Below are positions 1 to 60,637 of a stretch of DNA of 64,000 nt, in pieces. The position numbers and the translations under genes were made by a program. The stretch lies in assembly GCF_029873635.1 (NCBI RefSeq), contig NC_080419.1:68600823-68664822 (forward strand). The letters are read 5' to 3'. The DNA is from Malania oleifera. Taxonomy: Eukaryota; Streptophyta; Magnoliopsida; Santalales; Ximeniaceae. The notes beneath the pieces were generated by a model. The model was not told the origin of the DNA. It saw only the letters and a program-made list of their open reading frames with translations, and did not search any database. Position 1 is the stretch's first letter. Each line of letters starts with the position of its first letter.

Positions 1-751
1 AAGGTTTTTAAATACATTCCGTCACCTGAATTGTAGTTCAGTGGCCCGAATCAAAGTCAGAAAATTTTTTTTGTAAATTCGGGTGCCCGATCATAGGTTT
101 GGTAGCCCGAACTCGTGTGTTTGGTAGCCCGGGCCATTTTTGAACTGGTTTCCTCGGTAGCCCAAGTTGGTGAAAGGTCCTTTTCAGGTGGTTCGGACGC
201 CTATGGAAGGTATACACAAAATGGTTCGGTCACCTGGGAGCTTAGGTCAACTGTTGACTTCTCAACAATTCGGGCGCCCGAGGAGTTTTGAACTCGTGGG
301 GTTCGGTCGCCCGAGGTCTCTCAAACTCCTTAGAAATATTCAATTAAGTGCATTTTTAACACTCTAGAGTTTTGTATGATATATGTGCATAAGTGTTAGG
401 ACCTAGAGTCACACTAAGGTCTTACTGAGGCCGTTTTGAGATAGTCCCAAAAATCCGGTGTTGGTCGACTGTGCCCTAAGGTCATTCGGTCTTTATGGTC
501 AAACTACGGTCTTTTTGATCTTACAAAACCTACGTGCATGACATGCAGAGATTATTTCAAACCCATTTGAAATGAAATTATTACAGACCCAAAATATATT
601 AAAACAATTAATGAATATGTCGGGGTCTTCATGCTTTACTTCATGTGCCATCAATTGGTTTGCAAATATAAACCTACACACAAACTAGATAGACATTACA
701 TACCAAAGTATTTGTCATAATCAAGGTAGGGAATGACCCATAGGGTCAACA
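1..751 (-). repeat. S4: Sirevirus-type LTR, right end only
   Basis: This is the right-hand part of an LTR whose left part lies outside the window. It ends with the retroviral CA at 751 (sequence GGGTCAACA). It resembles the S2 LTR at about 28260-29070 in order and content: an array of GCCCGA words, then a conserved stretch, then the same kind of end. The end is the 5' tip of a minus-strand LTR. It interrupts the S1 5' LTR, because the bases that follow (GGTGGTATTGGCC) match the S1 3' LTR at 40298 but the bases before do not. Solo LTR or complete element cannot be told. Confidence 0.72.
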
Positions 752-843
752 GGTGGTATTGGCCTAAGGCGAGGACGTATGCTGGGGATAAGTCGAACCT
801 CGTAAAAGTCTTGGTCTCACTCTTACCCTTCTCTTTGCTTTCC

Positions 844-892
<49 letters not shown>

Positions 893-1348
893 GTGGTGTG
901 TATGCAAAGTGCAGGTTGCTGAAAATCAAAAATTGAGATTAAGAAGACTCTTAACTTAAGAAAGTGCGTTTTATTAAACTTTTGCGGAAACCCAAAAGGG
1001 AGTACATTGTTTAATCTTCGGAAATATTAGTTGAGAGAGGACAAGCAAATTTCATTCATTATAGGGCTTGAAACAAACACATATTCACTGGGCTACAAAT
1101 GAACTCTACCTTGAGCTTTTTCTAAAGTTGAAAAGTGCTACATCTTATATCTTGATTGAGTATATTGTGTTTGATTGGATTGTTTGGTTATTGTTTACTT
1201 GTGTTGAGATTAAGTGTGATTGTGGATTAATTGAACAAACTAAGTTTATGTTGAGTGTTGCTAAAGGTCAAAGAGCTCTTAAAAAGAATTAAAAGAAAAT
1301 TTTAATAACCCAATTCACCCCCCTCTTGGGACTACACCTTGACTTTCA
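752..1348 (+). repeat. S1 5' LTR, downstream part
   Basis: This matches 40298-40888 along its length and ends in CTTTCA just before the primer binding site. It holds a (TA)22 run at 845-889, a box shared with other Copia LTRs (GGACGTATGCT followed by CGAACCTCGTAAAA, about 768-808), and the CAATTCACCCCCCTCTTGG box at about 1310-1329. The upstream part of the LTR is cut off by S4. Confidence 0.85.
845..889. repeat. (TA)22 microsatellite
   Basis: An uninterrupted TA run inside the S1 5' LTR. The same place in the 3' LTR (40405-40426) has only about 11 units, so the run changed length after insertion. Confidence 0.95.
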
Positions 1349-5868: not shown

Positions 5869-6246
5869 TGTAATGCCCCGAAGAATAATGGTATTTAAAT
5901 AATAAAGAGGGAGAGAAATGGAAACAGTAACAGAAAGAGGCATCGACTTCGTCAACAAACGCGAACATTGCATTTTGAATATAATAACCCAAGGGATTTT
6001 CTAATGGCCTCATCGACAAACACAGGGGATTCTTTGACGAGGATACAAGAGGGTCTCGTCGACGAGGGCAAGTTTTGTCAACGAGAAGATACCAAGAGAG
6101 GATTTTTGGAAGTCTGAAATTCGTCGACGAGGGTGCAGGTTCATCGACGAACTTTCTACAGGACTTGTTGATGAGATGACCTGGCTCATCGACGAAGGCC
6201 GCAGAATAAATAATGCTAAGCTCATTTTCTTGCGCAGAAATTCACC

Positions 6247-6317
<71 letters not shown>

Positions 6318-7962
6318 AGGCTCCACCTCCATCTCTCTTTGATTTCAGCCCCTTCAGTCTCCGAATCGATGATTGGAGGCCACCACGACGCTCCTGGGGA
6401 AGTTCTCTCCAAGACTACTAGAGCGGATCGTTGGTGGGACGAAGTTGGATTTCATCCCAGAATCAGGGTAAGGCCTTTTAGTCAATTTTTGGCATTCTGG
6501 TAGTTGTAGGAAATGATGTAGGCAAAGAAATATTGATATTCTGTTCTGGTGAATGTTGTTTTCAAGGTTTCATGTAGGAAGTCCTGCGGGGGTAGGACCG
6601 GCATACGATAAGGGCTTTTTAATAATCAAGTAAGGCAAATATGTTATGCTAGGCAAATTTAGTATAATTATTAGTGTAGTAAATATATCTATACCAGATT
6701 ATTATTCACAGCGGGAATTGATATAGTTTATCAAGTATATTTAATGTGTTTTAAATTACTGTGTGGCATGAGAATATAGATATAGTACATAAGTATGTTT
6801 TACAGTATTTTCAGAGTATGTTATAAAGAGTATACAGATAGTGAATATGTTTTACAGCATCTTCAAAATACCATGATTATACAGATTTATAGTTTATTAT
6901 AGAAATATAGTTGATATAGATACAGTGTACAGTACCATGACATACAGTTTTACAGCTCATTTTTGAATTACAGTTGATACAGATACAGTTTATCACAGCG
7001 TAATGGTTTATACAGTTATTATAGAATCATGGTAAAATAGATAGTTGTATATAGAGATGTATTATATAGTATCAGACCCTGTTGGACAATACAGTTTACA
7101 AAGCACGATACCATAGCTACATACAGTATATAGAGTGCAACCACCTATTCAGATAATACGTGGTATAAAGGTCGATCGTATAAAGCCCACAAGTGGACAG
7201 GCTCCCCATCAGATATGGGTTGAGGAGGACTGATCAGACCTATGGAGTACAGTGATTTATTCCTGATTGGCCAGTTAGGGTAGATCCCGCCTTCGGGCTG
7301 CACAACCCTGTCATGAGGGGTTAAATCATGACACACAGTTATCCACAGGGAAGTTTTCAGTTATTACTATGTTTATACAGAGTTACAGAGACAAATAAAT
7401 ATATATACATATATATATATTAGAAGTATTTTGAGTAGAAACCTAAGGTACATAAATGTTAAGCAACGGGAGAAAGGTGATGGTTATATTACTAGTATTG
7501 TATTTTACAATTTCAGTGATACATGATTATATAGTAATAGATTTTCATAGTATTGTAACTCGTTTGCCACATACTAGCAATTGAATATTTCATCTTGCTG
7601 AGCGTTGGCTCATCCCATTACTTTTAACATTTTTCAGGTGATCCAGGTAGGTGAGCAGACCAGGCTCGCAGATAGAGGGGCCTCAGTACTACCCTGTCAG
7701 TAAAGAGTGAGTATATTTTTGGGAGTATTTTTGTATAGCCCTAGCCCAGTTGAGGGTATTTTGGGGAACAGTAGTACATGTATATTTTGGGAAACATTTT
7801 AGCACTCTAGTATTGTATATAATTATATATGGTTATGTTTATTTAATTTTCACTTCTCGCTGCTTAGGTTGATGGTTGGGTTTAATTCAGTTTGGTATCA
7901 AAGCATTGTAAATTTTACAGTATTAAAAAAAAAAAGCCCAAGTTAAATAGCAGGTCGTTACA
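5869..7962 (+). mobile_element. G1: Gypsy-type solo LTR
   Basis: A single LTR of 2094 bp that starts TGTAATGCCCCG, ends GTCGTTACA and is flanked by a perfect 5-bp duplication TTGGT (5864-5868 and 7963-7967). Its start, including AATAATGGTATTTAAATAAT, matches the LTRs of the chromovirus G2, so it comes from a related Gypsy family in plus orientation. It has TCGTCGACGA words at about 5990-6200 and a long (TC)n run. A solo LTR with target duplication is what LTR-LTR recombination leaves after a full insertion. It sits in the RNase H region of S1. Confidence 0.92.
6250..6314. repeat. (TC)n microsatellite in solo LTR G1
   Basis: About 32 TC units without interruption. The small open frames across it are by-products of the repeat. 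The related LTR of G2 has only a short TC run at about 15950-15962. Confidence 0.95.
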
Positions 7963-8344: not shown

Positions 8345-8747
8345 AAAAGTTTCAAGATAAGCATAGAAAGAATTTTTACAAATTTACAAACTTCAAATGA
8401 CTGAGCTTGGAAGCTCAAACGACTGAACACTGTATCCTGAAGGCTCAGACGACTGAGCCATCACACCTCAGTCGACTGAGGTGCTACTACGTGTTCAGAT
8501 TCCTATTCTGTAAATTTTCAAATGACTAATCTTAATCTTCAATCTACTGAAGTCGCTGGATCTATATATTTAACACGCAAAAACCCTAACTTCAGACTTC
8601 TGAACACTGCTCCATCTCTCATCTGAGGTACCCACTCTCTGTTTCCTTCATATCTCTTGAATCCAAGCCTCCCAACACGATTATACTTCCTTACGTACGA
8701 ATTCTAAGGTTTCACAGCAGGTGTTTGTTTGCTCTCTGATCTTTAAT
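8345..8747 (+). other. S1 spacer between pol and third ORF
   Basis: A non-coding stretch of about 400 bp. It holds repeated GACGACTGA and GTCGACTGAG words at 8395-8490, the same type of word as in the S1 3' LTR (24138-24175). After it comes TATATATTTAACACGC and a leader-like stretch rich in C and T up to the ATG at 8748. S3 has an equivalent spacer at about 33062-33450 with its own words. Confidence 0.6.
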
Positions 8748-9526
8748 ATGCCTCGCACTAAGACGATAACAAACTGAGGAACTTCTACTGGAAAAGATGA
8801 TAACAAAATTAAGAGATGGCTAGTTACACCTCCATCCAAGCTTCGTTATCGTTCTACTCTTTGTTCTATGGATCCTATTCTTGGTAAGGTGATCGACACC
8901 ACCTTCTTTGATACAGAATTTCCTGAAATACTGCCCATGTTTAGGAATATAGGTTGGAAGAACTTTGTGGTTTACCAAGCATAAGGCATGTTCCCAAATC
9001 TTATCAAAATCTTTTATGCCAACATGATTTTAACTACAGAGGTTAAAGGCAAGAAAATTGTTTTGACTCCTCTAATTTTAGCTCCCATTTTTCATATCAC
9101 TCCAGAAGAATTCAAATGTCCCACTTTTGCTCAGTCTTGGAGTTTAGAGCAAGACTTCACACCTGAAGCATTTTTGCCTCTGATTATGGAAAATGAACTC
9201 GTCTATTTTGGACATCCACCGTTGTACAAACAATTGAATCTCCAAGCCCAAATCCTCCACAAAATCATTTCATATAATATTTTACCCAAGACTGGCTCTT
9301 TCATTCATCTTTCCTATGTTGAGTGCTTTATTTTATGGTGTTTACTTAAAGGAAAGAAACTTGATCTGTCTAGTCTTATTTTGAAGTGGATGTGGGCAAA
9401 GTTAGAGCATTTAGAGTGACTCTTCCATATGGAGGTTCTTTGAACCTCATTTTTGCTCAACTTGATGTTACTACACCTTCCGAGTTGTTCAAAAAATGTA
9501 CTCGTTATGACCTCTTCAACTCCACA
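8748..9526 (+). pseudogene. S1 third ORF, first part (Sirevirus post-pol ORF)
   Basis: Begins MPRTKT and includes a domain also present in S3: FFDTEFPEILPMF, LIKIFYANM, VKGKKIVLTPLILAPIF, KCPTFAQSW, and LVYFGHPPLYKQL. The domain resembles what is annotated in plant genomes as a putative plant transposon protein. Some Sireviruses carry an envelope-like gene in this place, but I see no clear signal peptide or membrane segment here. The ORF is interrupted by G2 at 9527 and resumes at 17640. Function unknown; broken fossil. Confidence 0.65.
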
Positions 9527-10729
9527 GTAATGACCCAAAGGATAATGGTATTTAAATAATAAAGAGAGAGGAAAATGGAAATTGTAAAAGGGGGTGACAA
9601 TAGACCTCGTCGACAAACACGAAACGTGGCATTTTGGGCTCGTCGACGAGGAATAGCATTCGTCGCAAGGCCTTATGTATAATTTTGGTGCAAGGCCATA
9701 TTTATGAATGATTTCAGCCCAAGGTTGTATTTATAAATGATTTCGGTGCAAGGCCGCAGATATGAAAGTAATCGGCGCAAGGCCGCATTTATTTATGTTA
9801 TTACAAAAAATGTTATCAATTTATTTACGTTAAATAGTAAATTATCGTGTATTATATGTTAGCAGAACCCGGATGATAGTTCAGATCAGTTTTAGGAGCA
9901 CGATACCATAGCTATACAGTTCATATTATTACAGTTCAAACTTGTGCTAATCGCCCTTGCAAGTAGAGGGGGTGGGAGATGGATAGTCGATGTGGCTTTC
10001 AGTGTAGAGTTATAGATGTCCACCTGGCAATCCGGACCAGGGTGTGGCGGGCCCATCGTACTTACAGACATTTTTGACTAGGCAGTGGTTGGCCAGCCAT
10101 TGTCGGGTCCTGCCTTCGGGCTGCACAACCCGTCATGGGGGGTAGTACATGACATCAACTACGTAAACATCCTGGGTAAATTTCAGTATTATTAGTTATA
10201 TCAAATAATTTATGAACAGTATGATGTATGAGAATTATGAAATTATATGCTTACTCAGCTATGTTATGAACAATGTTTTCTAGTATGTGAAATGTAATGT
10301 ATATCTACTATCGCATTAAATATTCATGTTATCACACAACTGTATTTAGTTTATTTTTCCCTACTGAGAGGTGTCTCACCCTAACTTAAATCATTTTTAG
10401 GAAACTCAGAAAGACTAGCGGATCGAGGCCGCCGTTGAGTTAGTTGTGCTACCCTGCTAGGAGAGTAAGTTTTGAACTAGGATCAGGAAATTTTTTTGTG
10501 GGATCCTAGATATATTTTTGGATAGTTTTGGGGATTGTATATAAACACAGTATTATTTTGAATTGTAGTTAACTCTGGTAATATGCATTATATGGTTTGG
10601 TGAATGTAATTTATTTTACTACTGCTTAGGTTTTCGCTGTGTATGATAGGTGTGTCCTCGTTACCCATGGGTTCAGGTTGACTATATTATATATGAATTA
10701 TTATGTAGTAAGTTAAGTAGGTCATTACA
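9527..10729 (+). repeat. G2 5' LTR
   Basis: Starts GTAATGACCC and ends GTCATTACA. It is shorter than the 3' LTR but closely alike where both are present, for example in the last 400 bp. It contains CGTCGACGAGG words near 9605-9655. Confidence 0.88.
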
Positions 10730-10731
10730 GT

Positions 10732-10744
10732 TTGGTATCAGAGC
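10732..10744 (+). promoter_or_regulatory. G2 primer binding site
   Basis: TTGGTATCAGAGC, complementary to initiator tRNA-Met, two bases after the 5' LTR end. Confidence 0.9.
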
Positions 10745-11045
10745 CTAAGATGCTGGGTTCTGTAGACTCTAGAATGCAGTAGTAATAATACCAGAGTATA
10801 GAATAAAGGAATTTGAGGTCTGGTTTTGTAGTCTAGATGCAGGACTTCAGTAATGGTTTGTGTGATTTTCATGGGGTGACGATTTCAGGAAAGCCATGAT
10901 AAACTATCATCGGGTTAGGAGTCTAGGTTTCAGGATTGAACCTTGAATCCAGATCAGGGGCGAAGAATTAGTTTAAGATGTAATATATCAATTAGATGAC
11001 ATGTTACGATGTTAGAGTCCTAAGTTAAGTTTATTATTTTTTAGG

Positions 11046-12060
11046 ATGGACAGTGGAGGGATTAGTGCCCCTGCTAGTGGAAATAAGGGTTCTGGGCCCT
11101 CAGGCATTGCGGGTGGTGATTTAGATGCAATATTGCGTAGCGTGGCATAGCAAGTCGTAGCTAAAATTGCTAGGAATTTTAGAGAGCTGGGTGGTTCGTC
11201 TACAGGCCACAGCAGATCGATTGAGAAATTCATTAAGATGAATCCTCCAACTTTCTCAAGAGGAATTGATCCTTCTGTCGTTGAAAATTGGGTGCAGGAA
11301 ATCAAGAAAGTGTTTGCAGTGCTACAGTGTACTGACGAGCAGAGGATGCTGTTCGCTACATACAAATTGACTGGAGAGGCCAAGAGATGGTGGACGGCAG
11401 TGAAACTCCTAGAGCAGCAGAGGACAGTACCTATGGAGATGACATGGGAGCGATTTAAGGAGATATTTATTAACAATTATTTTCCAGCCTCATCTAGGGA
11501 AGCTAAGATAGAGGAGTTCCTGATCTGAAGCAGGGACAGCAAACAGTGCAGCAGTACGCGGCAAGGTTTATTGAACTATCTCGCTTCACCCCGTACATTA
11601 TTCCGGATGAGATGAAAAAGGTACGAAAGTTTGAAAGAGGTCTGAGGAGAGAAATATATAAGCAGGTGTCGATACTGAAGGTGCAGGATTTTAGTGAGTT
11701 GGTGGATAGGGCCACTATAGCAGAAATTGGAGAGCGGTTGGACGCTGAGGAGTAGAGACAGAGGAAGAGATCCACACCGTCTGGTTCCCAGTAGGGGTCT
11801 AGTTGTGGTTCGTGGAAGAGAGGTGGCTACTACAGAGACCGAAGGAAAGAGACAGGGAATCATGGTTTTCAAGGTATGCAGCCACTTTCAGTTTGTCCGA
11901 ATTGTGGGAAGAGGCACCCGGGGGAGTGTCGTGTCGGGCGAGGTATTTGCTACCGGTGTGGGGAGCTAGGGCATGTGATAAGAGATTGTTAAGCTTAGAT
12001 TGGTGCTGATTTCGCTCCTAGACCTGCTCGAGGAGGCTATCAGGCACCACATGGAGGCCA
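11046..12060 (+). pseudogene. G2 gag region
   Basis: Starts MDSGGISAPASGNKGSG and runs into the Gypsy gag domain: KMNPPTFSRGIDPSVVENW, MLFATYKLTGEAKRWW, and FKEIFINNYFPASSREAKI, followed by the FIELSRFTPYIIPDEMKKV region. A CCHC-type knuckle lies near 11900-11990. G3 has homologous gag blocks on the opposite strand (KMNPPAFFGATDLAVAEN at about 55873-55925). Broken fossil. Confidence 0.82.
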
Positions 12061-12070
12061 GTAGAGGAAT

Positions 12071-13560
12071 ATGGTTCCAGTCAAGGTTTTTGCTTTGACA
12101 CCGGGTGATGCTGAGACAGCCGGTGATGTGGTGACAGGTATGGTTAATATGTTTTTATATAGATTTATTGCATTATTTGACTTAAGGGCCACACACTCGT
12201 TTGTGTCTATGGGGTGTGTTAAATTATGTGGGGCAAAAACACAGTTATTAGACATTGAACTGATAGTGACAACACCGACCAGGTCAGCAGTAAGGTGTAG
12301 TAGGGTGCTTCATGGTTGTCTAGTTGATATTCAGGGGAGAATTTTATCTACTGACTTAATAGTGTTGTACATGCAAGGGTTTGATGTCATATTTGGCATG
12401 GATTGGCTAGCAGCTAACTTTGCCAGTATAGATTGTCATTCGAGAGAAGTGATATTCAGACCCCCAGGAAGAATAGAATTCAAATTTATAGGGTCACGAG
12501 TGCAATCTCTACCTCAGTTGGTTTCAGCTATTCAAGCAAGGAGACTGCTTCTGAGTGATCGTCAGAGGTTCGTGGCCTTTGTGAAAGAAACGACAAGGAA
12601 TGAATTGAAGCCCACTAATACACCAATATTAAAAAAATTTACAGATGTGTTTCTAGATGAATTACCAAGTTTGCCATCTAATTGTGAGGTAGATTTTCCT
12701 ATTGATCTACTTCCAGATACAGCACCGATCTCTAAAGCATCTTACCGAATGGAACTAGTAGAGTTGGCAGAATTAAAGAATCAATTGCAAGATTTGCTTG
12801 ATAAGGGTTTTATATGACCTAGTGTATCTCCGTGGAGAGCTCCAATATTATTTCTGAAGAAGAAAGACGGATCCATGAGGATGTGTATAAATTATAGGGA
12901 AATTAACAAAGTGACAATCAAGAACAAGTATCCTCTACCCCGCATAGATGATTTATTTGACTAGCTCCAAGGTACATGGGTGTATTCTAAGATTGACCTC
13001 AGATCAGGCTACCATCAAGTAAAGGTAAGGGCGGAAGATGTATCGAAAATGGCCTTCAGGACTAGGTAAGGGCATTATGAGTTTCTTGTTATGCTGTTTG
13101 GTCTAACAAATGCTCCTGCAATATTTATGGATTTGATGAATAGGATTTTCCATCAATATGTAGATCATTTTGTTATTGTTTTTATTGATGATGTACTGGT
13201 CTATTCAAGGAACTATGAGGAGCATAAGACGCATTTGAGGCAGGTTTTGCAGACACTTAGGGAAAAGAAGCTGTATGCCAAGTTTAGTAAATGTGAGTTC
13301 TGGCTCGAGAAAGTTGTGTTTTGGGGGCACGTTATCTCAAGGGATGGAATTTTTGTGGATCCTAGTAAAATTGATGTGGTAGTGAATTGGGCTAGACCGA
13401 GGAACGTCTAGGAGATCAGGAGTTTCTTGGGGTTAGCTGGTTATTACTATCATTTTATCGAAGGATTCTTGGCGTTATCAGGGCCTCTCGCACGCCTAAC
13501 TAGGAAGAACATCATATTTGAATGGGATAATGGCTATGAGCAACATTTTTAGGAATTGAA
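12071..13560 (+). pseudogene. G2 protease and reverse transcriptase regions
   Basis: Protease-like segment at about 12070-12540 with the retropepsin neighbourhood (IALFDLRATHSFVS) and GFDVIFGMDWLAANFASID. RT follows: [47 protein letters not shown], and [15 protein letters not shown] with the catalytic Asp pair near 13185. The SYRMELVELAELKNQLQ block is typical of chromoviruses. Broken fossil. Confidence 0.85.
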
Positions 13561-13589
13561 GTAAAGGCTAGTCACAGCACCAGTACTGG

Positions 13590-47272: not shown

Positions 47273-49493
47273 TGTGACGACCTCCAAATTTACATCATCA
47301 TTTTTCATTTTTTTTTATATTAAATATATTAACTGTTCTGATACCCCCTGATATGAAACTCGAGCCTCGGAAGGCACCGGGGTGAATCTGAATATAAAAT
47401 TATACCTATGCAGCGAAAACGTAATCCATACATCCACATACATCATACAATACTAGAAATCCATATTTCTATACCATAACTATATAATACATCTCTCTCC
47501 AAAATACCTGTCCCAAAATACAAAACCCTACACAAACTTACCCTCTAAACCAGGGTAATCAATATACTTTCTATTCACGAGCCTGATCCACTCGCCCAGC
47601 TGGTTCATTTAAAAAATGCTAAAGTCATAGGGTGAGTCGACGTTAGTAAGTGGAAATATGCTATTACTAGTGTGTGACAACTAAGTTAGGAATATTGTTT
47701 AAATAACAACTGAACTGTAATACATTAGTAAATCTGTAAAACATATCTTTATTTTCACAATTTAAAATATAACTGTATCATATGTGTTTTCTACTCTTCA
47801 TACTGCTAATATCATACTATACTCATCGTATACTATAAAATTGTATACATATACATAACTGTGTTTTATCCCTGGAACTCTGTATGTCATGATTTGACTC
47901 CTCATGATAGGGTTTTGTGGCCCGTAGGCGGGACTTTTTCTGGTCGGCCCTCTAGATAGGTCAATATACTCTACACTACCTCAGCCCGGCCAAACAACAT
48001 CCACTCCTAGGCTCGGGACTGGCTGCTACCTCGTCAAACCGACCCCCTCCACCCAGCGAACTGGGGAGCTGTATACTCTCCGAGCACGGTCGACAATACC
48101 TACACACTATCTGAGATATGTGGTTGCACTCTATCTGTATCTAGCAATGGTACCGTGCTCTGTATTCTTTATCTATACTTTATCTATCTGTAATCTTCCT
48201 CAGGGATCTGATACTATATATATACATATATACTTTTTTACTGTTTTTATCATATTTCCAAAATTACCATAACACTATCTTTATGTACTGTAAATACTAT
48301 AATCTCTGTATACTGTATTTGTAGCATCTTGATGCTATCTCTGTATATCTATTTGTATTCTCTGTCTATATACTCTGTTTGTATACTCTGTATGTTATGG
48401 TAATAGGAAACATGGCATACGATAAACATTATATATAATGTTCTATATAAAGCTGTAATATATATACTGTTCTGAGTAAAACTGTATACATGTATGTATA
48501 TATATATATATATATATATTATGAAACTATTCATATAAAAGTTGTATATGCATGCATATCTTTCTGTATAATCTCTGTGAATATATAACTATATCTATAT
48601 ATTCTGTACAACTCCATATAATGGAAAAAACTATATAAATTGTATATACTATCTACATCTGTGTATTCAGTATAGTATGATACACTGTAAAAACTATATA
48701 AGTTCTTCATCATATAAATATCCACTCAGGCCACACAAGCATTTAAAACTCATATTTTGTAAAACTAGGTAATAAGCTGGTATATACATATGTGTAAAAT
48801 CTCTATTAACATTATAACAATTCTTAGCATAGCATATTTCTCTTACCTTAACTCTGAAAAGCCCCTATAAAATTCTGGCTCTATACCCGCAGGGTTCCTA
48901 GCTCAACATCCTGAAAACAAAATCCCCTAGAACAAAATATCAGTGTTTTCTTACTTACATCATTTCTCATAACTACAAGGAAGACATAATCTTAACAAAA
49001 TACCTTACCCTGGATTTGGGATGAAATCCAAACCAATTTCTCCAACGATCAGCTCCGGCAGACTTATAGAGAACTTTGCCAGGAGTGTCGTGGTAGTCTC
49101 AGATCTTCGATCCAAAGAGAAATGGGCCCGGAAACGAAGAGAGAAGTTGGAGAGACCGTAGGAGAGAGAAAGAGAGGAGAGAGAGAGAGAGAGAAGCACT
49201 GAAATTGGATAAAAATATGAGTTTTCACTATTTATAGGGCCAGATTTGTCAACGAGACACGTCACCTCGTCGACAAATCATTAAGTAATTTCGTCGACGA
49301 ACCTTACCTCCTTGTCAATGAAATTTAGAATGCCCAAAACCCCTCTCGGTATCTCCTCATTGACAAATCTTGTCTTCGTCGATGAGGTCCTCTTATGCCT
49401 TCGTCGACGAAATTCCCTGTGTTCGTCAACGAGGCCCCTGAAAATTCTCTTCCTCTTTATTATTCAAATAATATTATTATTCTGGTTATTACA
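47273..49493 (-). repeat. G3 3' LTR
   Basis: 2221 bp, TGTGACGACC to GGTTATTACA. On the minus strand it begins TGTAATAACC, like G1 and G2. TCGTCGACGA-type words are clustered at 49247-49435. The stretch 48120-48690 is very TA-rich with many TATA/TGTA repeats. A short GA run is near 49155-49193. The purine tract lies just outside at 49494-49507. Confidence 0.92.
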
Positions 49494-49507
49494 TTCTCCC
49501 CTCTTTA
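49494..49507 (-). promoter_or_regulatory. G3 polypurine tract
   Basis: On the minus strand AAAGAGGGGAGAA adjoins the 3' LTR; the flanking AAATTTCGAGGGCAAAATTT matches the equivalent place in G2 (15738-15756). Confidence 0.82.
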
Positions 49508-49907
49508 TAAAATTTTGCCCTCGAAATTTACTATCTGTATGTCCATTTATACACTCCATCATTCCATAAAGGAAAAAGGGTCTACTTATTTTTTTTCCTG
49601 CCCTCACTTGTGGCGGAAGAATACCGTGGTTACATACTATGTTCTGGGAGATTACACATATAAAACTAAAAACTATCCACTAACTAAAATCAATGCATGT
49701 ACCTGCAAAAGAAACTTATCTAACTATTATACCTTACCTGAGTACCTCTATACCTCTTGGAACAACTGCGGGTATCTCTGTCTGATTTGCTCCTCGAGTT
49801 CCCAAGAAGCTTCCTCTATGACGTGATTCCTCCACAAAATTTTAACTAACTGTATTTCTTTAGTGCGTAAAGTCAGAACCTTCTTGTCCAAAATCTATAC
49901 TGGTACT
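49508..49907 (-). pseudogene. G3 chromodomain-like end, part next to the 3' LTR
   Basis: The part up to about 49740 is non-coding and resembles the G2 stretch between its last ORF and 3' LTR. About 49740-49900 on the minus strand corresponds to the chromodomain-like C-terminus (compare G2 15370-15535). S6 is inserted at 49908. Broken fossil. Confidence 0.65.
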
Positions 49908-51793
49908 TGAAATGAGGAATAGCTTCCCAAGAGGGGGGGTGAATTGGATTCTTTTTATATTTTAATAATTTTTAAGCTTTTAAGTTTAATTACCCAGAAA
50001 ACAAGATATATATGAATGATAACCACACTTAAGAAATACTGAAATTTAAATTCACAAGTCAATCAATGAAACCAAGATAATTAAATCACTCAATCAAAAA
50101 TATTAAAGCTTTTGTTGATTTCCCTGTAAACTCTTAGTATGCACTCTACTTGGTTAAGATTTCCGCAGATTAACCAACGAACTCCCTCTTTGGGTTTCCG
50201 CAAACGATTAATCAAAACATACTTTCTAAATATCAAGTACCTTTGTTTCTTTCTCACTTAAGAACCTGCAACCTGCACTTTTAAATCATACAACTATAGC
50301 AAGTAAAGAATATAAAGTAAAGCAGAGAGAAAGAGACAAGAATTTTTTTGAGGTTCGGCTTCAACACAGCCTACGTCCTCGCCTTTGGCAAAACACCAAA
50401 GGATTCCAATATATCAGTTCCTTTACCTAGTGGAACAATACCTATTTACAACCACTCCTTCTGTTAGGCTAGAGCCCACCTCTCCAAACAATAACCCCTT
50501 GTTTGGTCCAACGATTCAACAACTCTGAATCATTTAAGAATGATGATAAAGAAATTTGTGTATAAAAGAGAACTCTCACAATAGAGTAAATTAGTACAAT
50601 GATCAGCTCACTTATACTCCAAGGTAATTCAAATATAAGAAATTTGATGCTCAGAACTTAGTATGAATTACCAAATAATTTTTCAAAGAAAGATGAAAGA
50701 TTCTGATTTTTGAAAGCTTTGCTTCAAAATATAAATCACTTTCAGATCAGAATTTTTAAGCACAAGAGAGTTTTAAATCCTTTGAGAAATTTGAATACTT
50801 GAAGATCACTTGATCTAAAAACCTTTGAAAAGTTGCTTGATCTAAAAACTATGAAGATTTCTGGATCTAAGAACTTTGAAGATTGCTGGATTTGAGAACT
50901 TTGAAGATTGCTGGATCTGAAAACTTTTGAGAATTGCTTAATTTCAAAAACCTTTCAATATTGCCTCTATAATCATTGTTTTAAACCTTTGAAGCTTTTG
51001 ACTATTTATAGATGTTTTTAGAAGCCAACCATTACTCCCAAAGATTCCAAAAATTTATTTCCAAATATTTTGAAATAAATATGTTCAAAAACGTGATTTA
51101 TAAAATCTTCCCATTGGGAGAATTAATGCCAACGTACGAGTAGCAGTCGCCTGCCATGACTTGGCAGTCGCCTGTCACAAAGCACTCTCTCAACATACTA
51201 TGCTGGCAGTCGCCTGCCAGAACCAAGGCAGTTGCTTGGCTTGTTCACGCAGGCACCTGGCTGATTAGGCAGTCGCCTGTCTAGCTACTGACTTTTTGAA
51301 AAATCATTTTCTTAATGTGGCAGTCGCCTGCCTCTTCATGGTAGTCGCCTGACCGTTCATAATTTCAAAAAGTTTTCTTTTCTTAAACCCTTTCTTTTCA
51401 TAAAAAAAAGTATTCTTAAGAGTATAAACGTAAAAACATATTTTTGAATTTTTATGAGCTTCAAACCACTTTATATTTGAGATTAACTTTGAAGTACTTA
51501 CATTTAGAATGCCCTTAAAAAATATAATTCTTTTAGTCTTCAAACTTGTTCTTCCATCATCTTTGTGGTTGCAATCTTTCCTTTGAGCTTTTCACAATAT
51601 AACTTTGTTCTTCATGTTCTTCGTAATCCATGAGCTTTACTTTGTGTTCTTCAAGAATTCTTTGTAATCCATAAACTTCCTTATGCACTTTGAGTTTTGT
51701 TATTTTCCTGAAAACTTTTGCTTGAAACATATTAAACATATCATTTGATTTGTTATGATCAAAATAAGAATTGTAAGCCTTATTAAGCCAACA
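49908..51793 (-). mobile_element. S6: Sirevirus-type solo LTR inside G3
   Basis: A 1886-bp unit, TGAAATGAGG to TTAAGCCAACA, flanked by GTACT (49903-49907) and ATACT (51794-51798), a target duplication with one difference. Its left end is very like the S3 LTR (AGCTTCCCAAGAGGGGGGG) and it has the same GAGGTTCGGCTTC box near 50350. It carries GGCAGTCGCCTGCC-type words at 51137-51355. No coding parts. Confidence 0.88.
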
Positions 51794-53590
51794 ATACTTC
51801 TTCATATGCCAATGAATCCTTAAGCACTATCTCTGCATAGCTAATGATTTGGGATGGATCTGGGATGTATTTCCTTAACATGGCAACATGAAATACGTCA
51901 TGAATTCAAGCCAAATCTTGCAGCAAAACTAGCCTATAGGCAACTGACCCTATTCTCTCAAGTATCTCAAAAGGGCTAATATACCTAGGGCTCAACTTGC
52001 CCTTCTTTCCAAACCTCATGACTCCTTTCAGAGGAGCTATCTTCAAAAATACTCGATCTCCCACGTCAAATTCTAACTCTCGACGGCAAGTGACTACGTA
52101 CCTTTTCTGCTGACTCTGTGCTGTATTAATTCTTTCTTTAATTAGTCGGACCTTGTCACAAGCCTGCTGTACTATCTCTGGACCCAAAACCCGCCTTTCG
52201 CCTACCTCGTCCTAGAAGAGAGGAGAACAACATCTCCTACCATACAATGCCTCGTATGGAGCCATGACGATACTAGCTTGGTAGCTATTATTGTAAGCAA
52301 ACTCAACTAATGGCATAAACTGAATCCAACTACCTCCAAAATCAAACACACAAGCACGAAGCATATCCTCTAGTGTCTGAATTGTTCTCTCAGACTGACC
52401 ATCTGTCTAGGGATGGAAAGCAGTGCTAAAAGCTAACTGTGTACCCATAGCCTCCTGAAAACTTTTCCAAAATCGTGAAGTAAACCGAGGATCTCGGTCT
52501 GAGACTATCAATATTGGTACTCCATGAACACGAACTATCTTCTGAACATATATCTCTGCCAATCTGTCCATGGAATAACCAATTTTAATAGGGATGAAAT
52601 GAGCGATTTTCGTCAGACGATCTATAACCACCCAAATCGCATTCAATCCCTATCGTACTGGTGGTAACCCCATAACGAAGTCCATCGAAACGTGGTCCTA
52701 TTTCCATTATGGAATGAACAGTGGCTGCAACTGTCCTGCCAGTCTCTGGTGCTCAACTTTAACCTGCTGACACGTCAAGCATTGCTAAACAAATTCGGCT
52801 ATCTCCCTCTTCATTCCACTTCACCAGAAATACTCTCGCAGGTCCCTGTACATTTTAGTACTGCCGAGATGGACTGTATATAGGGATCTGTGAGCCTCCT
52901 CCAATATAGTTTTCCTTATCTCAGTATCTATAGGAACATATAGCCTAGTACGGAATCGCAGAGCTCCGTCATTTGATATGCTGAACTCCTCTCCCTAACC
53001 ATCTCGCACTCTAGCCATCACCTCTGCCAACTCTGCATCATCGCCTTGAGCTGCTTTAATCCTCTCGTATAGTGTAGGCTAAACCACTAGACTGGAAATA
53101 ACTGACTGAGGACTCTTCTCTACCAATTCTATACTAAGCCTCTCCAAATCCATCAGAATTGAGTGCTGAATCTCCATAGCTGCCAGTGCGAGTCCCCCTG
53201 ATTACCTACTTAGAGCATCTGCCACTACATTTGCTTTTCTTAGGTGGTAACTAATCGTGCAGTCATAGTCTTTCATAAGCTCTAGCCACCTTCTTTGCCT
53301 CATATTCAGCTCTTTCTAGGTAAAGAAATATTTCAGGCTCTTGTGATCCGTGAAAATCTCGCATTTCCCACCATATAGGTAATGCCTCCAAATCTTAAGT
53401 ACATACACCATTGCAGCAAGCTCTAAATCATGGACAGAATAATTCTTCTCATATTCTTTAAGCTACCTAAACGCATATGCAATGACCCTATTGTACTGCG
53501 TCAACACGCATCCAAGACCTTTCAAAAAGGCATCATTGTATATTACGAACCCATCCTCCCCTGAAGGAATAGCCAGTAGTGGAGCTGAAA
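51794..53590 (-). pseudogene. G3 integrase and RNase H regions
   Basis: Minus strand. Integrase C-terminal part at about 51900-52190 (RRELEFDVGDRVFLKIAPLK, GKLSPRYISPFEILERIG). Integrase core at about 52400-52650 ([57 protein letters not shown]). Zinc region near 52740-52800. RNase H at about 53270-53580. Order RT-RNase H-integrase is Gypsy. Broken fossil. Confidence 0.84.
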
Positions 53591-53597
53591 CTAACCC

Positions 53598-54560
53598 CTA
53601 CTTTAACTCTTGAAAACTCTGCTCACAGTTTTCAGTCCATTCAAATTTTACATTTTTCCTTGTAAGTCGGGTTAATGGACTTGATAGCCTAAAGAAACCA
53701 TTCACAAAACGCCAATAACAACCTGCTAATCCCAGAAAACTCCTGACTTCCTGAACATTTCCCAACCTTTCCCAACTCACCACTGCCTCTATTTTACTTG
53801 GATCAACTGATACACCTGCTTCTGAGATCGCATGGCTGAGAAAAGTAACTTGTCTTAACCAGAACTCACATTTCTTGAATTTTGAATATAATTTCCTTTC
53901 TCTCAATATCTGCAACACCAATCTCAAATGATGCTCGTGGTCCTCAAAACTCCTCGAGTAGACCAGTATATCATCAATGAACATAACCACAAAATGGTCC
54001 AAATACTGATGAAACACTCGATTCATTAGATCCATAAATACTATTGGCACATTAGTCAACCTGAATGGCATCATTAAGAACTCGTAATGCCCATACCTGG
54101 TGCGAAATGCGGTCTTCGAAATATATTCTGCTTTAACTTTCACCTGATGGTAGCCTGACCGCAGATCAATTTTAGAGTAAACCTGGGTCCCCTGGAGCTG
54201 ATCAAATAAATCATCGATCCTAGGTAGAGGATATTTATTCTTGACTGTCAATTTTTTTATTTCCCTATAATTGATGCATAATCTCATAGTTCCATCTTTC
54301 TTTTTCATGAACAAAACTGGCGCAACCCAAGGCGACGCACTAGGCTTGATGAAACCTTTATCTAGCAATTCCTGTAACTGTTCTTTCAATTCTTTTAACT
54401 TTATTGGGGCCATATGGTATGGTGCTTTCGATATTAGTGCAGATCCCGGCAACAAGTCTATAGTGAACTCAATCTCATGATCTGGTGGCAAACCAAGCAA
54501 TTCTTCTGGAAATACATCTAAGAATTCCCTCACTACTGGTATATCGGCTTGTCCCAATTC
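53598..54560 (-). pseudogene. G3 reverse transcriptase
   Basis: A long Gypsy RT block: [92 protein letters not shown], and [19 protein letters not shown] with the catalytic Asp pair near 53965-53975. It is followed by the [19 protein letters not shown] linker. The wording is closest to Tekay/Del chromoviruses. The element is broken elsewhere. Confidence 0.9.
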
Positions 54561-54596
54561 TTCTCTTGGAAATTCTTTTATGTATGCAACATACCC

Positions 54597-56118
54597 CTAG
54601 CAACCACCCTGTAACAATTTCCTCACCTGAATAGCCGACACTAGCTGTGGCGAGGCACGCACGCGTGAACCCGTAAATCTAAATTCTGACTCGCCCGGGG
54701 GTCTAAAAATTACTTCCTTTAGATGACAATCAATACTTGCATGATAAGTTGCTAGCCAATCCATGCCCAGTATCACATCAAATCCCTGCATATCCAGGAC
54801 CACAAGATCGGCTAAAAGCACTCTCTCTTGAATACTTACTGGAAAATTCCGAAGTACCCTCCTGCATCTAACCACAGATCCCATCGGCGTACCCACTAAC
54901 AGTTCTACATCTAGTAGCTGAGTCTCTACCGTAGTTATTCTGACATACCCTGCCAATATAAAGGAATGGGTGGCACCTGTATCAAACAAAACAATCATTT
55001 TATATGGTAAAGCAATAAGAGTACCTGTGACTACGTCTCCAGCCATCTTAGCATCTCTCGATGTTAATGCGTATACCCTCGCCGGCACAGTGTTCCTCTG
55101 CTGACCACCGTGACGCGCGCTGATATCCACCTCGAAACAGTCTTGGAGCCTGAGCATAATTCGATGGCATCTGACACGATCAAGCCATATGACCCGACCT
55201 CCCACAGCGATAACAAACATTCTCCCCCAGTTGGCACACAACAGGATGTCTCCGTCTGCATTTAGGACAAATGGCAGGAAGCTGTCCGCCCTGAAATCCC
55301 CTGTGCTCTACCATCTACCTCTGACCTCCGCCAGATCTACCTCCTCTCCAAGGGCCTCGACTGGGACTTGCCTGAAAACTCGAGGGCGCAGTCCTCTTCC
55401 TCTGACTTGGTGTCTCCATCTCTCTAGATAGATTCTCCTCCGCTATAGTGGTCCTGTCAACCAATTTTGAAAAATCTTGGATCCTCAGTACCGCCACCTA
55501 TCTGTAAATGTCTCGCCTCAGGTTCCTCTCAAACATTCTGGCCTTCTTCACTTCATCGAAAACAATATATGGGCAGAAATGCGAGAGCTCGATAAATTTT
55601 TCCGCAAACTGCTGGACAGTCAATGATCCCTGGGATAGGCTCAGAAACTTCTGTACTCGAGCCTCTCTAACTAAGGCAGGGTAATATCTATCGAAGAACA
55701 CGTCCCTAAAACAAGCCTAGGTCATCGACACTGATATAGCCCTCTGCTCCTCCAACAACCTGGTGGCTACCCACCATCTCTTGACCTCCCCTGCTAGCCT
55801 ATACATAGCATATAAAACTTTATGCTCATCGGTGCAATGAAGTACTGTCAAAATCTTCTCTACCTCCTACACTTAGTTCTCCGCAACTGCAAGATCAGTC
55901 GCTCCAAAGAAAGCAGGCGGATTCATCTTCATGAATTTCTCTATAGTGCATCCCTGAATGGGAGATGGGCCTCCTTGCTCTCTAGAACTCCGCGCTATCT
56001 CATCCATAACTTGCTGAGCCACACTACGTAGCACAGCATCTAAATCCCCACCTGCTACGCCAGAAGGACCAAAACTATCATTCCCACTAGCATAAGCGCT
56101 ATTGCCTCCTAGGTCCAT
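54597..56118 (-). pseudogene. G3 gag and protease regions
   Basis: Gag begins MDLGGNSAYASGNDSFGPSG at 56118 on the minus strand and has KMNPPAFFGATDLAVAEN and LSHFCPYIVFDEVKKARMF. A cysteine-rich CCHC-type region follows near 55190-55290. The protease region (54620-55080) has VLFDTGATHSFILAGYV, with the retropepsin DTGA, and GFDVILGMDWLATYHASID. Homologous to G2 in order. Broken fossil. Confidence 0.85.
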
Positions 56119-56417
56119 CCTGCAAACACATAGAACACCATTTCATAATTTTATTTCCCTACAGACCCAACTTATTCAACTAAAACTCCAAATTCTATAT
56201 TAACCATCCCTTCTGATCCTAATTCAAAAATCACATCCCATAACCTAAATACATAACTCGTCGACAGTTTACTACGGTTTTCCTGAAATCGTCACTCCAG
56301 AAAAAACATAGAAACTACCACGAAATCCTGCATCCAAATCACAGAATAAAACCTCAAATCTTTTTCCTATATTATGGTATTGTTTTTCGTTACACTCTAG
56401 AGTTTACAAAACCTAGC

Positions 56418-56440
56418 AACCTAGGCTTTGACACCAAACT
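56418..56440 (-). promoter_or_regulatory. G3 primer binding site
   Basis: On the minus strand AGTTTGGTGTCAAAGCC next to the 5' LTR; a variant of the initiator tRNA-Met complement TGGTATCAGAGCC. Confidence 0.72.
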
Positions 56441-58556
56441 ATGACGACCTCCAAATTTACATCATCATTTTTCATTTTTTTTATATTAAATATATTAACT
56501 ATTCTGATACCCCCTGATATGAAACTCGAGCCTCGAAAGGCACCGGGGTGAATCTGAATATAAAATTATACCTATGTAGCGAAAACATAATCTATACATC
56601 CACATACATCATACAATACCAGAAATCTGTATTTCTATACCATAACTATATAATACATCTCTCTCCAAAATACCTATCCCAAAATACAAAACCCTACACA
56701 AACTTACCCTCTAAACCAAGGTAATCAATATACTTTCTATTCGCGAGCCTGATCCGCTCGCCCAGCTAGCTCACCTGAAAAATGTTAAAGTCATAGGGTG
56801 AGTCGACGCTCAGTAAGTGGAAATATGCTATTACTAGTGTGTGACAACTAAGTTAGGAATATTGTTTAAATAACAACTAAACTGTAATACAATAGTAAAT
56901 CTGTAAAACATATCTTTGTTTTCACAATTAAAATATAACTGTATCATCTGTGTTTTCTACTCTTCATACTGCTAATATCATAATATACTCATCGTATACT
57001 GTAAAATTGTATATATATACATAACTGTGCTTTATCCCTGGAACTATGTATGTAATGATTTGACCCCTCATGACAGGGTTGTGTGGCCCGTAGGCGAGAC
57101 TTCATCTGGTCAGCCCTCTATATAAGTCAATATACTCTACACTACCTCAGCCCGGCCAAATTGCATCCACTCCTAGGCTCGGGACTGGCTGCTACCTCGT
57201 TAAACCGGCCCCCTCCACCCAATGAATTGGGGAGCTGCATACTCTCCGAGCACGGTCGACGGTACCCACACACTATCTGAGATATGTGGTTGCACTCTAT
57301 TTGTATCTAGCAATGGTACTGTGCTTTATATTCTTTATCTATACTGTATCTATCTGTAATCTCCTCGAGGATCTGATACTATATATATACATATATACTT
57401 TTTTACTGTTTTCATCATATTTCCAAAATTACCATAACACTATCTTTTTGTACCATAAATACTGTAATCTTTGTATACTGTATCTGTAGCTTCTTGATGC
57501 TATCTCTATATATCTGTTTGTATTCTCGGTCTATATACTCTGTCTGTATACTCTGTATGTTATGGTAATAGGAAACATGGCATACGATAAATACTATATA
57601 TACTGTTCTGTATAAAGCTGTAATATATATACTATTCTGAGTAAAACTGTATACATGTATATGTATATTTGTATATATATCTGTTTTCAGTATAACTCCA
57701 TATACTGAAAAAAACTATATAAATTGTATATACTATCTACATCTGCGTATTCAGTATAGTATGATACACTATAAAAATTGTATAAGTTCTTCACCACATA
57801 AATATCCACTCAGGCCACACAAGCATTTAAAACTCATATTTTGTAAAACTAGGTAATAAGCTGGTATATACATATGTGTAAAATCTCTGTTAACATTATA
57901 ACAATTCCTAGCATAGCATATTTCCCTTACCTTAACTCCGAAAAGCCCCTATAAAATTCTGGCTCTATACCCGTAGGGTTCCTAGCTCAACATCTTGAAA
58001 ACAAAATCCCCTAGAACAAAATATCAGTATTTTCTTACTTACATCATTTCTTATAACTACAAGGAAGGCATAATCTTAACAAAATACCTTACCCTGGATT
58101 TGGGATGAAATCCAAACCAGCTTCTCCAACGATCAGCTCCGGCAGACTTATAGAGAACTTTGCCAAGAGCGTCGTGGTAGCCTCAGATCTTCTATCCGAC
58201 GAGAAACGGGCTCGGAAACAAAGAGAGAAGTTGGAAAGACCGTAGGAGAGAGAGAGAAGCATTGAAATTGGATAAAAATATGAGTTTTCACTATTTATGG
58301 GGCCAGATTCGTCGATGAGACACGTTACCTCGTCGATGAGTTCTTAAGTAATTTCGTCGACGAACCTTACCTCCTCGTTGACGAAATTCAGACTGCCCAA
58401 AACCCCTCTCGGTATCTTCTCATCGATGAATCTTGTCTTCGTCGATGAGGTCCTTTTATGCCTTCGTCGACGAAATTCCCTGTGTTTGTCGACGAGGCCC
58501 CTGAAAATTCTCTTCCTATTTATTATTCAAATAATATTATTATTCGGGTTGTTACA
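56440..58556 (-). repeat. G3 5' LTR
   Basis: 2117 bp, ATGACGACC to GGTTGTTACA. Very like 47273-49493, with TCGTCGACGA-type words at 58308-58495 and a TA-rich middle. Confidence 0.92.
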
Positions 58557-58561
58557 TTTCT

Positions 58562-59992
58562 AGTGTGGTGGGATCTAGGCATGGTGTTATGTCTAGATGG
58601 TGCATCTTTCTGGCATATAAAAAATATGAGTTCAAGTTGGGTGATCCAATGGCAAACAAGGTGGTGATTGGTGGAGACATGACTTTAGGTGTTAAAGCCA
58701 TGAGACATCATACTTAGGTAAATAAAGAGAAACCGGTGCCAGAAAGCTATAATAGTAGTAATGAGCATGTTGTGCAGGTGGAGTTACAGACTCAAGGTAG
58801 GAGTGCAGGGAGTTCTAACTTAGGAGACTTGCAATATCATAGGATAAACTAAAGTAGAAAGGAGATTGTGATGCAGGTGGAGTTTCAAACTCAAGGAAGA
58901 GATGACGTTGGTCTCGAGAGACCAGTAGGATCACAAAGGGCTCAAAGGCACTATTATGCCATCACCCAGGTGTGATATGATGTCTTATACAACCATTACT
59001 ACCAAGAAGGATCCTACTACCTTGCAGGAGGCAGTGCACGACCAAGAGAAGGGTAGGTGGATAGGTGCCATAGTGGAGAAGATGGAAGGTATTGTATAAG
59101 AATCAGATGAGGGGTTTAGTGGTGCTCCCAAAGAGGGAGTGGGGGATAGGCTGCAAATGTGCTGGTATTCTGTTGTTTTATGTGAGTGACATGCCAATTA
59201 TTGGAAAAGTTATGGTTGAGGAAAATCAGTCGAGAACTTTGTTGAGAATGGAAGTTGACATGAAGGTGTTGAGTGTTGCCAAGAGTATTCTTAGGTTAGA
59301 GATTGGCAAAAATAAGGTTACAAGGAGATTGAGATTATCTCAGGGTGACTTTGTAGCTGTGGGGAGATTGGTGTTATCTCAGGGCGGCTGTATGGATAAA
59401 ACTACATGGAGATTGCGGTTATCTCAGGGTGGTTGTGGGGATCAAGTGTTAGTGAGGTTTAGCATGGTTGATGTTAAATCTATCACTAGTACCCTGTTGG
59501 TTAATCTAAGTAAACAGTTTACCACTCAATACTTGAGGACGGACGGTGATGTTCGGGTCGTGTCAAAGGTTTCCTACGCTAGTATAGTTGGGTACATTGG
59601 TGGGAAACAGAGGGTTCCTTTAGTTGTGAGGTTCGCAGATGGAGACTACATAAGGGGCTTGGATAACAGGAGGCTTGCAACGGGGTACGTTGTGGGAAGC
59701 CCTAATTGTTGGAAGTCTGGGATACAATCTTAGGGTGCATTGGTTACAACTAGAGTGGAGTTCTTGGCAGAGATTGAGGCTGCCAAGGTTGTATTGTGGT
59801 TCGAAAGATCGTTCAAGGAGTTGGGTGTTCAGTTAGGTGGAGTTCCTGTTACCACGTCAAGTTCAAGCGTGATTTGGACTTGGTTTAAGTCTCTAGGTGT
59901 TAGAGGGGAGATGAACCCAATCTATAGGCCAGGAGGAGCAACAGTTGTGCTTTTAGATTTCCAAGGCGGTGAATATTCGCCAAGGTGGAGAT
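58562..59992 (+). pseudogene. T1 integrase end, RT and RNase H remnants
   Basis: Resumes T1 after G3. The integrase C-terminus (CIFLAYKKYEFKLGDPMANK) is at about 58600-58660. An RT remnant near 59160-59500 includes ILLFYVSDMPIIGKV, which aligns with the Copia YVDDMLIIG region, and LSQGD-type blocks. RNase H is at about 59560-59850 (RFADGDYIRGLDNRRLATGY, EFLAEIEAAKVVLWFERSF). It ends with a purine tract at 59982-59992. Only a subset of the pol domains can be recognised. Broken fossil. Confidence 0.75.
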
Positions 59993-60637
59993 TGTTAGAG
60001 ATGTGGCTCATATTCTGAGCATATCGCATGTACCGAAGAAAGACATGTGAAGTGCGGGAAAATTGCATGAGAGGAGTCTGCAACACTGAGGGCAAACTAT
60101 GGATTGATTGGGCCAAATCGTCGACGATTTTAGGCAGTACGCGGGAGTATTTTCTTAGCACCAAATAGTCAACTGTTTGGCCTAAGTAGTCGATTGTTTC
60201 AGTGGTGCAAATTACGAATTTTGAATTTGGGGGCTCGTAGATTGAGGTTATTTGGAGGATTTTCCTTCGGGGGATTATTATAGATGTAGTTTAGTTTTAC
60301 TAGAACTCTTCTATAGACATTGAGTTCATACTTAAACACTATGATAACCCAAAGATGTAAGCTTTGTCATTGATTATAGTGAAAACCAAAGTGCTGCTCC
60401 CATGGATGTAGGTTATCGCCGAACCACGTAAATCTCGTGTGTTCTAATTGTATTTTTGCTTCTTCTTATTATTCTTTGATTGCTTCTTGGGCATAGTTCA
60501 TTATCGAGTGTTTGCATTTGTGGTTGTTGGTTCGTTTGCGATTGATTGTGTGCTTCCGTTGCATGTGTTCAAGTTGAATGGGAATTAGAATTCTAGTTGA
60601 ATTAGAATTCAACTTGAACGGGGAACTAGAACCAACA
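59993..60637 (+). repeat. T1 3' LTR
   Basis: 645 bp, TGTTAGAGATG to GAACCAACA, about 82% identical by eye to 42607-43237. It has GTCGACGA/GTCGATTG words at 60118-60200 and the GGATGTAGGTTATCGCCGAA box near 60404-60423. Followed by GGTGG, the right target copy. Confidence 0.9.

Follow-up and report, generated by a model that had tools for sequence, protein, structure and literature searches.

A 64-kb stretch of the Malania oleifera genome (contig NC_080419.1, positions 68,600,823 to 68,664,822; 64,000 nucleotides, hereafter the window) is a nest of long terminal repeat (LTR) retrotransposons in which arrays of short dyad-symmetric words recur. Such arrays exist genome-wide, their spacing is conserved between diverged Sirevirus families, and the words of an array have changed together without base-pair covariation. 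We consider that the arrays probably act as cis-regulatory DNA sites in the control region of the LTR, read by a factor that would have changed its specificity; judged from the sequences, this reading is given a rough probability of 0.55. In large part the family words are products of one core, CGG-NCGN-CCG, whose outer CpGs were lost in one direction.

The initial annotation had described palindromic words of one design in almost every LTR family, and arrays of this kind are real. In an unbiased test, the commonest near-palindromic 12-mer of each stretch was compared with 100 dinucleotide shuffles, for 15 candidate and 10 control stretches (elements are listed in Table 1). Nine candidates exceeded all 100 shuffles, namely S2, S4, the 5' LTR of S3, the linker of B, S5, S6, both LTRs of T1 and the solo gypsy-type LTR, and one LTR of copia element X (X1) gave p = 0.02; the 3' LTR of S3 (p = 0.475), the S3 linker (0.822), the 5' and 3' LTRs of T2 (0.198 and 0.465) and the other X LTR (X2, 0.881) failed. 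No control stretch passed (lowest p = 0.059), and the supposed excess of palindromes over shuffled sequence is thus present. A direct scan with the family word, allowing up to four mismatches in 14 positions, found at least eight copies of one dyad-symmetric word in each of S2, S3 (5' LTR), S4, S5 and S6; four-mismatch matches at 38621 in S3 and at 46211 and 46387 in S5 (the last 18 bp from the next word) were left out. Some of the words given earlier needed correction. S2 and S4 share a word whose consensus is actually TTCGGTCGCCCGAG; the form TTCGGGCGCCCGA occurs once, at 269, and TTCAGACGTCTGAA is absent from the window as an exact match, with three sites one mismatch away from it. Several words are near-palindromic and not true palindromes (centre TCGC in S2, S4 and S6). 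A GTCGAC core is common to T1, the solo gypsy-type LTR and X, and T2 has two words per LTR.

By reading, Sirevirus LTRs are about 1.9-2.3 kb long with the array about 430-850 bp inside, and gypsy arrays sit about 65-320 bp inside their LTRs. S3 and B also carry arrays outside the LTRs, at 33207-33407 and 8399-8598, between pol and an extra open reading frame (ORF). A TATA-like box lies downstream of the array in S3, S4, S6 and the T1 3' LTR, and a TATA-like match within about 350 bp accompanies 16 of the 28 arrays compared below, a count made without a control.

The same words recur throughout the 1.494-Gb assembly, in which exact copies of four words were counted on the forward strand against the reversed word: 3,249 against 1 for TTCGGTCGACCGAA, 1,868 against 3 for TTCAGACNTCTGAAG, 1,055 against 0 for GGCAGTCGCCTGCC and 77 against 0 for TTCGGGCGCCCGAA. 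When 20 stretches of 10 kb were sampled at fixed steps along contig C1, 12 carried near-palindromic arrays (16 arrays once four tandem-like ones were removed), and the shuffled loci, one version each, carried none. Palindromes of 10 bp with a GTCGAC centre numbered 45 in the 200-kb sample against 0.65 expected; only such per-word counts were used, the palindrome total being inflated, probably by runs of N. Further loci were targeted by an exact TTCGGTCGACCGAA match (L037-L046) or by two nearby exact GGCAGTCGCCTGCC matches (L029-L036); labels with L denote loci of the wider genome. In a search for arrays in other plants, viral contigs scanned by pattern yielded none, and a protein scan gave no confirmed relative.

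An origin of the arrays by one recent tandem duplication was rejected, since the flanks are near the random level while the words are alike. Across 28 arrays, the 7-bp flanks of the words are 0.21-0.38 alike, compared with 0.61-0.85 for the words and 0.25-0.29 for random 7-mers. Flank likeness rises above random in some arrays (0.34 vs 0.28 in L006, 0.33 vs 0.26 in L018, and 0.32 vs 0.26 on the left side in L028). The 28 arrays are the 39 found minus 11, of which seven were at overlapping targeted loci and four were removed by judgement (three regular tandem repeats and an irregular ATGCACGTACAT array in L016).

Spacing was kept while the words changed. In group II (S2, S4, S5, L019 and L039), nine words stand at 41-20-22-33-39-33-43-33, with every interval equal within 2 bp, and arrays with this one spacing carry three different words; the proposal of a kept design with an altered word is therefore borne out for the group II Sireviruses. 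For six pairs of four arrays, permuted interval orders fitted as well in only 4-6 of 40,320 cases. Group I (S3, L006 and L023) has a cadence of two words, 51, four words, 50 and then four to six words, with undetected words in L023. The cadence of S6 in the window is 2, 42, 4, 51, 2; allowing undetected words, it is found in three of eight further S6-type loci (L029, L030 and L033) and partially in L032, L034 and L035, and L031 and L036 have another order. A swap of words with kept spacing between S3 and S6 was only marginal (240 of 5,040 orders) and was not retained.

The adjacent spacings of four arrays fit a period of 10.4 (R = 0.65, n = 34) better than any of 3,000 random placements, and for all-pairs spacings 1 of 3,000 was as good. 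When each ancestral cadence was counted once, the figure was 2 of 4,000 (n = 17), and for group II alone 578 of 4,000. For the Sireviruses, spacing close to full turns of the helix is kept as a suggestive feature only, and helical phasing was dropped as a main claim after the ancestry correction and the null result in gypsy arrays given below. Genome-wide, pairs of CGGTCGACCG number 9 at spacings of 25-29 versus 6,681 at 18-48, these counts being lower bounds in which copies of one family were counted many times.

Word identity goes with the array and not with the site. In each of four cross-family trios of group II, none of 5,000 whole-word swaps reached the observed within-array agreement, and the same-family swap controls showed no effect (5,000 of 5,000 for S2/S4 and 1,908 of 5,000 for S5/L039 reached the observed value). 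Spacers at orthologous positions resemble each other more than other spacers do for S2-S4 (p = 0.012), S2-S5 (0.039) and S5-L019 (0.012). Gene conversion of whole blocks appears unlikely, because the flanks are near random likeness and spacer orthology was found in three of the six pairs.

An exchange of words between families had also been suggested. The words do change, but in large part through changes made in concert at both outer CpGs of a common CGG-NCGN-CCG core. A methylated CpG yields either TG or CA by transition. Half-sites were scanned in 19 arrays with arm positions 3-4 and 11-12 masked; the masked scan admits chance matches, which were classed as 'other' (in S5 11 of 32 arms, in L041 13 of 38). 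CG half-sites are kept in S2, S4, L016 and L028 (59 of 82 arms), and decay in these CG-type arrays is even (9 TG, 9 CA; 5 other). S5 leans to TG (13 TG, 2 CA, 6 CG, 11 other), as does L039 (11 TG, 1 CA, 8 CG, 6 other). The CA-type arrays (S3 5' LTR, L006, L023, S6, L029 and L033) hold 84 CA, 0 TG, 2 CG and 14 other arms, with CA in 15 of 20 arms of the S3 5' LTR and in 13 of 14 of S6, both without TG; the S3 linker has 10 CA and 1 TG, and the B linker 13 CA and 0 TG. Pairing of a CG arm with a TG arm is favoured in L040, L041, L045 and L046, and L019 pairs CA with CG. The bias between TG and CA differs by family (p = 3e-9, with one array per family and the words within an array treated as independent). 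A common core is suggested because TG or CA loss is one-sided by family while the CG-type arrays decay evenly; word ends and centres also differ between families besides the outer CpGs.

Several observations weigh against reading the arrays as spaced protein sites rewritten in concert. Three pairs of arrays show no significant spacer orthology, namely S2-L019 (p = 0.25), S4-S5 (0.47) and S4-L019 (0.09), and the orthologous words of S5 and L019 (0.706 alike) are more alike than the S5 words are among themselves (0.651). Asymmetric words are orientation-locked in each array (46 of 48 S6-type words), which a homodimer would not need; the lock suggests unlike half-sites or an oriented complex. Moreover, some weak words were set by the cadence itself (199 in S2, 46541 and 46668 in S5, and one in L039), which favours agreement at the split intervals, not at the summed ones. 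The helical signal falls to 84 of 4,000 (n = 12) with shared ancestry and repeated intervals removed, 15 gypsy arrays have no peak near 10.4 bp (preferred spacings 19-21 and 24-25), and no TATA-like match was found near 12 of the 28 arrays.

From the patterns of word and spacing we infer reading by a protein. Each word would be a pair of half-sites, with 5-bp arms around an NCGN centre, on double-stranded DNA, and a putative dimeric DNA-binding protein would read it. Such a factor might activate the LTR and the extra ORF, or keep both unsilenced. The fixed spacing would serve a common protein assembly, and a change in the specificity of the reader, or escape from CG methylation, could have driven the concerted change of words. 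A wider account can be offered only tentatively: a position-locked Sirevirus scaffold may have been rewritten in concert along routes of CpG loss by a specificity change of the reader, whether of the element or the host, with unrelated gypsy and copia elements of this genome converging on one and the same GTCGAC-centred reader, in an arms race among motif, reader and CG methylation. Homologous arrays with the same geometry and different words are natural swaps for asking whether the reader changed, and the CpG rule ties word change to DNA methylation, so that the arms-race account becomes testable.

On the other hand, the words could act in RNA, in that the U3 (unique 3') array, with which the transcript ends at its 3' side, would fold into hairpins that feed small interfering RNA (siRNA), a route put forward for Sireviruses of maize. 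Maize small RNAs map to LTR regions rich in palindromes (PMC5311732, PMC10760457), and predicted RNA folds beat shuffles in three of five arrays here (z = -5.05 in S3, -5.75 in S5 and -4.53 in T1); the excess is weak, however, in S6 (z = -1.64) and S4 (z = -2.07). The arm pairs show no compensation, with 253 Watson-Crick pairs against 257.2 expected, and on the sense strand 254 against 259.9 together with 37 G-U pairs against 35.3. With no covariation between the arms, a role as RNA hairpins is not favoured; selection for hairpins was rejected for want of a signal in covariation or wobble counts, and the hairpin function considered in the initial annotation gains little from folds that are strong in only three of five arrays. 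Nor does RNA folding predict a fixed spacing with free spacer sequence. Hairpin and siRNA roles are possible, and action of the words in RNA as the general explanation seems rather unlikely.

Two further explanations give methylation a different part. In one, similar to VANC anti-silencing, a protein of the element itself, possibly the product of the extra ORF, would bind the family word and remove methylation, and reader and word would co-evolve. Concerted word change would agree with it, as would the fact that the outer CpGs lost are sites of methylation, the second cluster preceding the extra ORF, and the presence in noncoding DNA of family-specific short-motif arrays that differ between related elements (compare PMC5735166). 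However, the AlphaFold model of the extra ORF (mean predicted local distance difference test, pLDDT, 36.5) has no usable structure, for which reason this ORF was not taken up as the DNA-binding reader, and in Pfam scans covering only part of each element no such ORF was seen in gypsy T1 or copia X; we regard this explanation as improbable. Alternatively, the arrays could be sequence without function, built by old duplications, with the words homogenised by mutation bias at methylated CpG and small-scale gene conversion. In its favour, CpG transitions make up most of the family differences at arm positions 3-4 and 11-12, the words of one array point the same way, and some arrays have flanks a little more alike than random. 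Yet even decay in CG-type arrays does not fit the one-sided TG- and CA-type arrays, conversion would carry the spacers along whereas the flanks are near random, and spacing was kept to 2 bp despite spacer divergence, which leaves an origin without function quite improbable.

The kind of array is already known, as the Sirevirus marks of S3 and B, the repeated motifs described in 2010 and a match to the Vitis word indicate. Palindrome clusters had been noted as known from maize; they are, but not only there. The 2010 account (Bousios et al. 2010, PMC2829016) covers several plants and 13 Sireviruses, each with its own palindromic word in 8-32 copies per element, mostly in the upper LTR half and upstream of the TATA box, with extra copies before the env-like gene in env-bearing elements. 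In the same account, a CGG-CCG core was present in all but one element, the motifs were absent from classic copia elements, and no common factor reading the palindromes could be named. The most frequent of the four words counted here has as its core the Vitis word of that account, CGGTCGACCG. The Malania arrays are alike in the element-specific palindromic word, the position upstream of a TATA-like box and the second cluster before the extra ORF in S3 and B. Unlike the 2010 motifs, the words of S3, S6 and S5 lack an intact CGG-CCG, a core kept in S2, S4, L016 and L028, and arrays occur also in Ty3/gypsy T1 and weakly in copia X (p = 0.02 and 0.881 for its two LTRs). The arrays in Ty3/gypsy elements and the short one in copia X are an extension of the Sirevirus kind. 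Gypsy or copia arrays, conserved spacing, concerted word change and a CpG rule were not found in the portions of PMC2829016 consulted, and among the titles and abstract openings from a search of a limited literature collection, together with passages of PMC6911290, no report of palindromic word arrays in gypsy or chromovirus LTRs was apparent.

In maize, Sirevirus palindrome clusters lie in the LTR cis-region and show high sequence variability (Bousios et al. 2016, as cited in PMC5311732 and PMC10760457); that work had small-RNA data, whereas the Malania description covers only geometry and the evolution of the words. In Arabidopsis VANDAL elements, the VANC target repeats are short family-specific motifs arrayed in noncoding DNA with fast divergence between relatives (PMC5735166, PMC10398659), and the arrayed motif of Malania group II likewise differs between related elements. 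VANDAL, however, is a DNA transposon with a proven element-encoded reader and published motifs that are not palindromic (PMC5735166), whereas the Malania reader is putative.

Element borders and nesting in the window were derived from self-alignment and reading of the sequence (Table 1). Pfam scans found copia-type gag and pol (Retrotran_gag_2, RVT_2) in S3 and B, gag and Pol_BBD only in S4, and Retrotrans_gag, RVT_1 and SH3_Tf2-1, with rve below cut-off, in the Ty3/gypsy element T1; S2, S5 and S6 are LTRs without coding DNA here. X is a copia element in which no Sirevirus marks were seen here. All five octamers AGGGGGAG of the window are in linkers, three in S3 and two in B, and the octamer-AT/TG junction is absent in the window for S2, S4, S5 and S6. 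A polyC-rich signal near the LTR end was matched in the two B copies only (pattern with up to three mismatches), and by reading a run resembling it was seen in S3, S4, S5 and S6. Judged by such sequence marks, S3 and B are Sireviruses. The extra ORF of S3 may correspond to the env-like gene of Sireviruses; by self-alignment a related stretch lies in B at about 8760-9529 (+), and at E 0.001 the database gave just two relatives of the ORF, each from Malania oleifera, with 41% coverage.

Table 1. Word arrays, elements and associated features of the window (the inverted-repeat row includes two further loci).
Feature	Position	Strand	Description	Basis or context
S2 array	17-315	-	TTCGG-KCGC-CCGAG, 9 copies and a diverged one centred at 199	unbiased test, scan
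S4 array	28286-28630	-	11 copies, word and cadence as in S2	unbiased test, scan
S3 5' LTR array	39449-39712	-	TTCAG-WCGW-CTGAA, 10 copies	unbiased test, scan
S3 3' LTR array	30343-30628	-	S3 word, 10 copies	scan with family word; unbiased test failed
S3 linker array	33200-33413	-	6 copies, between RNase H and extra ORF	scan; alone fails unbiased test
B linker array	8392-8604	+	YTCAG-WCGA-CTGAR, 7 copies	unbiased test, scan
S5 array	46398-46832	-	TTYGG-TCGA-CCRAG, 10 copies	unbiased test, scan
S6 array	51142-51353	-	GGCAG-TCGC-CTGCC, 8 copies, single orientation	unbiased test, scan
T1 3' LTR array	49265-49434	-	TTCG-TCGA-CGAA, 5 copies	unbiased test, scan
T1 5' LTR array	58307-58497	-	7 copies	unbiased test, scan
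Solo gypsy-type LTR array	5947-6197	+	7 copies	unbiased test, scan
X array, LTR 42607-43237	42709-42811	+	four words, core GTCGAC	p 0.02, scan
X array, LTR 59993-60637	60116-60177	+	two words left	scan; unbiased test failed
GTCAA-N-TTGAC	246-258, 28561-28574; L019 9009; L028 1892, 1968, 9433, 9509
Element B	before 752 to 40888	+		encloses S2 LTR, solo gypsy-type LTR, T2, hAT remnant, S4, S3
S2	LTR end at 751		Sirevirus-type; truncated by the window start	inside B
Solo gypsy-type LTR	5869-7962		target duplication TTGGT	inside B
Gypsy T2	about 9530-17634			inside B
hAT transposase remnant	19844-21272	+	PF14372 in second ORF; first ORF without Pfam match	between parts of B
S4	5' LTR 27047-29070			inside B
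S3	29251-40222		5' LTR 38356-40222, 3' LTR 29251-31115; duplication GTATC/GTATT	inside B
S3 extra ORF	32003-32968	-	PF20167 (putative plant transposon protein), downstream of pol	word cluster upstream
Octamer AGGGGGAG + AT, S3	31116-31125	-	adjoins TG of S3 LTR	further octamers at 31180, 31487
Polypurine octamer + AT/TG attachment, B 3' LTR	23644-23655	+		second octamer at 23300
Copia X	42607-60637		LTRs 42607-43237 and 59993-60637	encloses S5, T1
S5 solo LTR	44960-47257		target duplication GCTAT twice	inside X
Gypsy T1	47273-58556		target duplication TTTCT twice	inside X, encloses S6
S6 solo LTR	49908-51793		duplication GTACT/ATACT	inside T1

Some minor features were also observed. The inverted repeat GTCAA-N-TTGAC lies in the 40-44 bp interval of the group II arrays S2, S4, L019 and L028, and the exact pattern was not found in S5 or L016; it resembles the W-box, a WRKY site. 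By eye, two further TTCAG-type words 21 bp apart (24135-24170) were seen at the edge of the S4 insertion in the B LTR. Near the start of the S3 LTR a 22-bp unit is repeated in tandem, 3.0 times in one of the two LTRs and 4.0 times in its partner (30955-31021 and 40039-40127), and 80-bp tandem duplications of unlike sequence, with 96 and 98% matches, occur in the S4 LTR (28796-28956) and the S3 linker (31275-31435). In the genome sample, tandem arrays with palindromic units of 19 bp (L021, from 9526) and 45-46 bp (L024, from 1513) are probably satellites.

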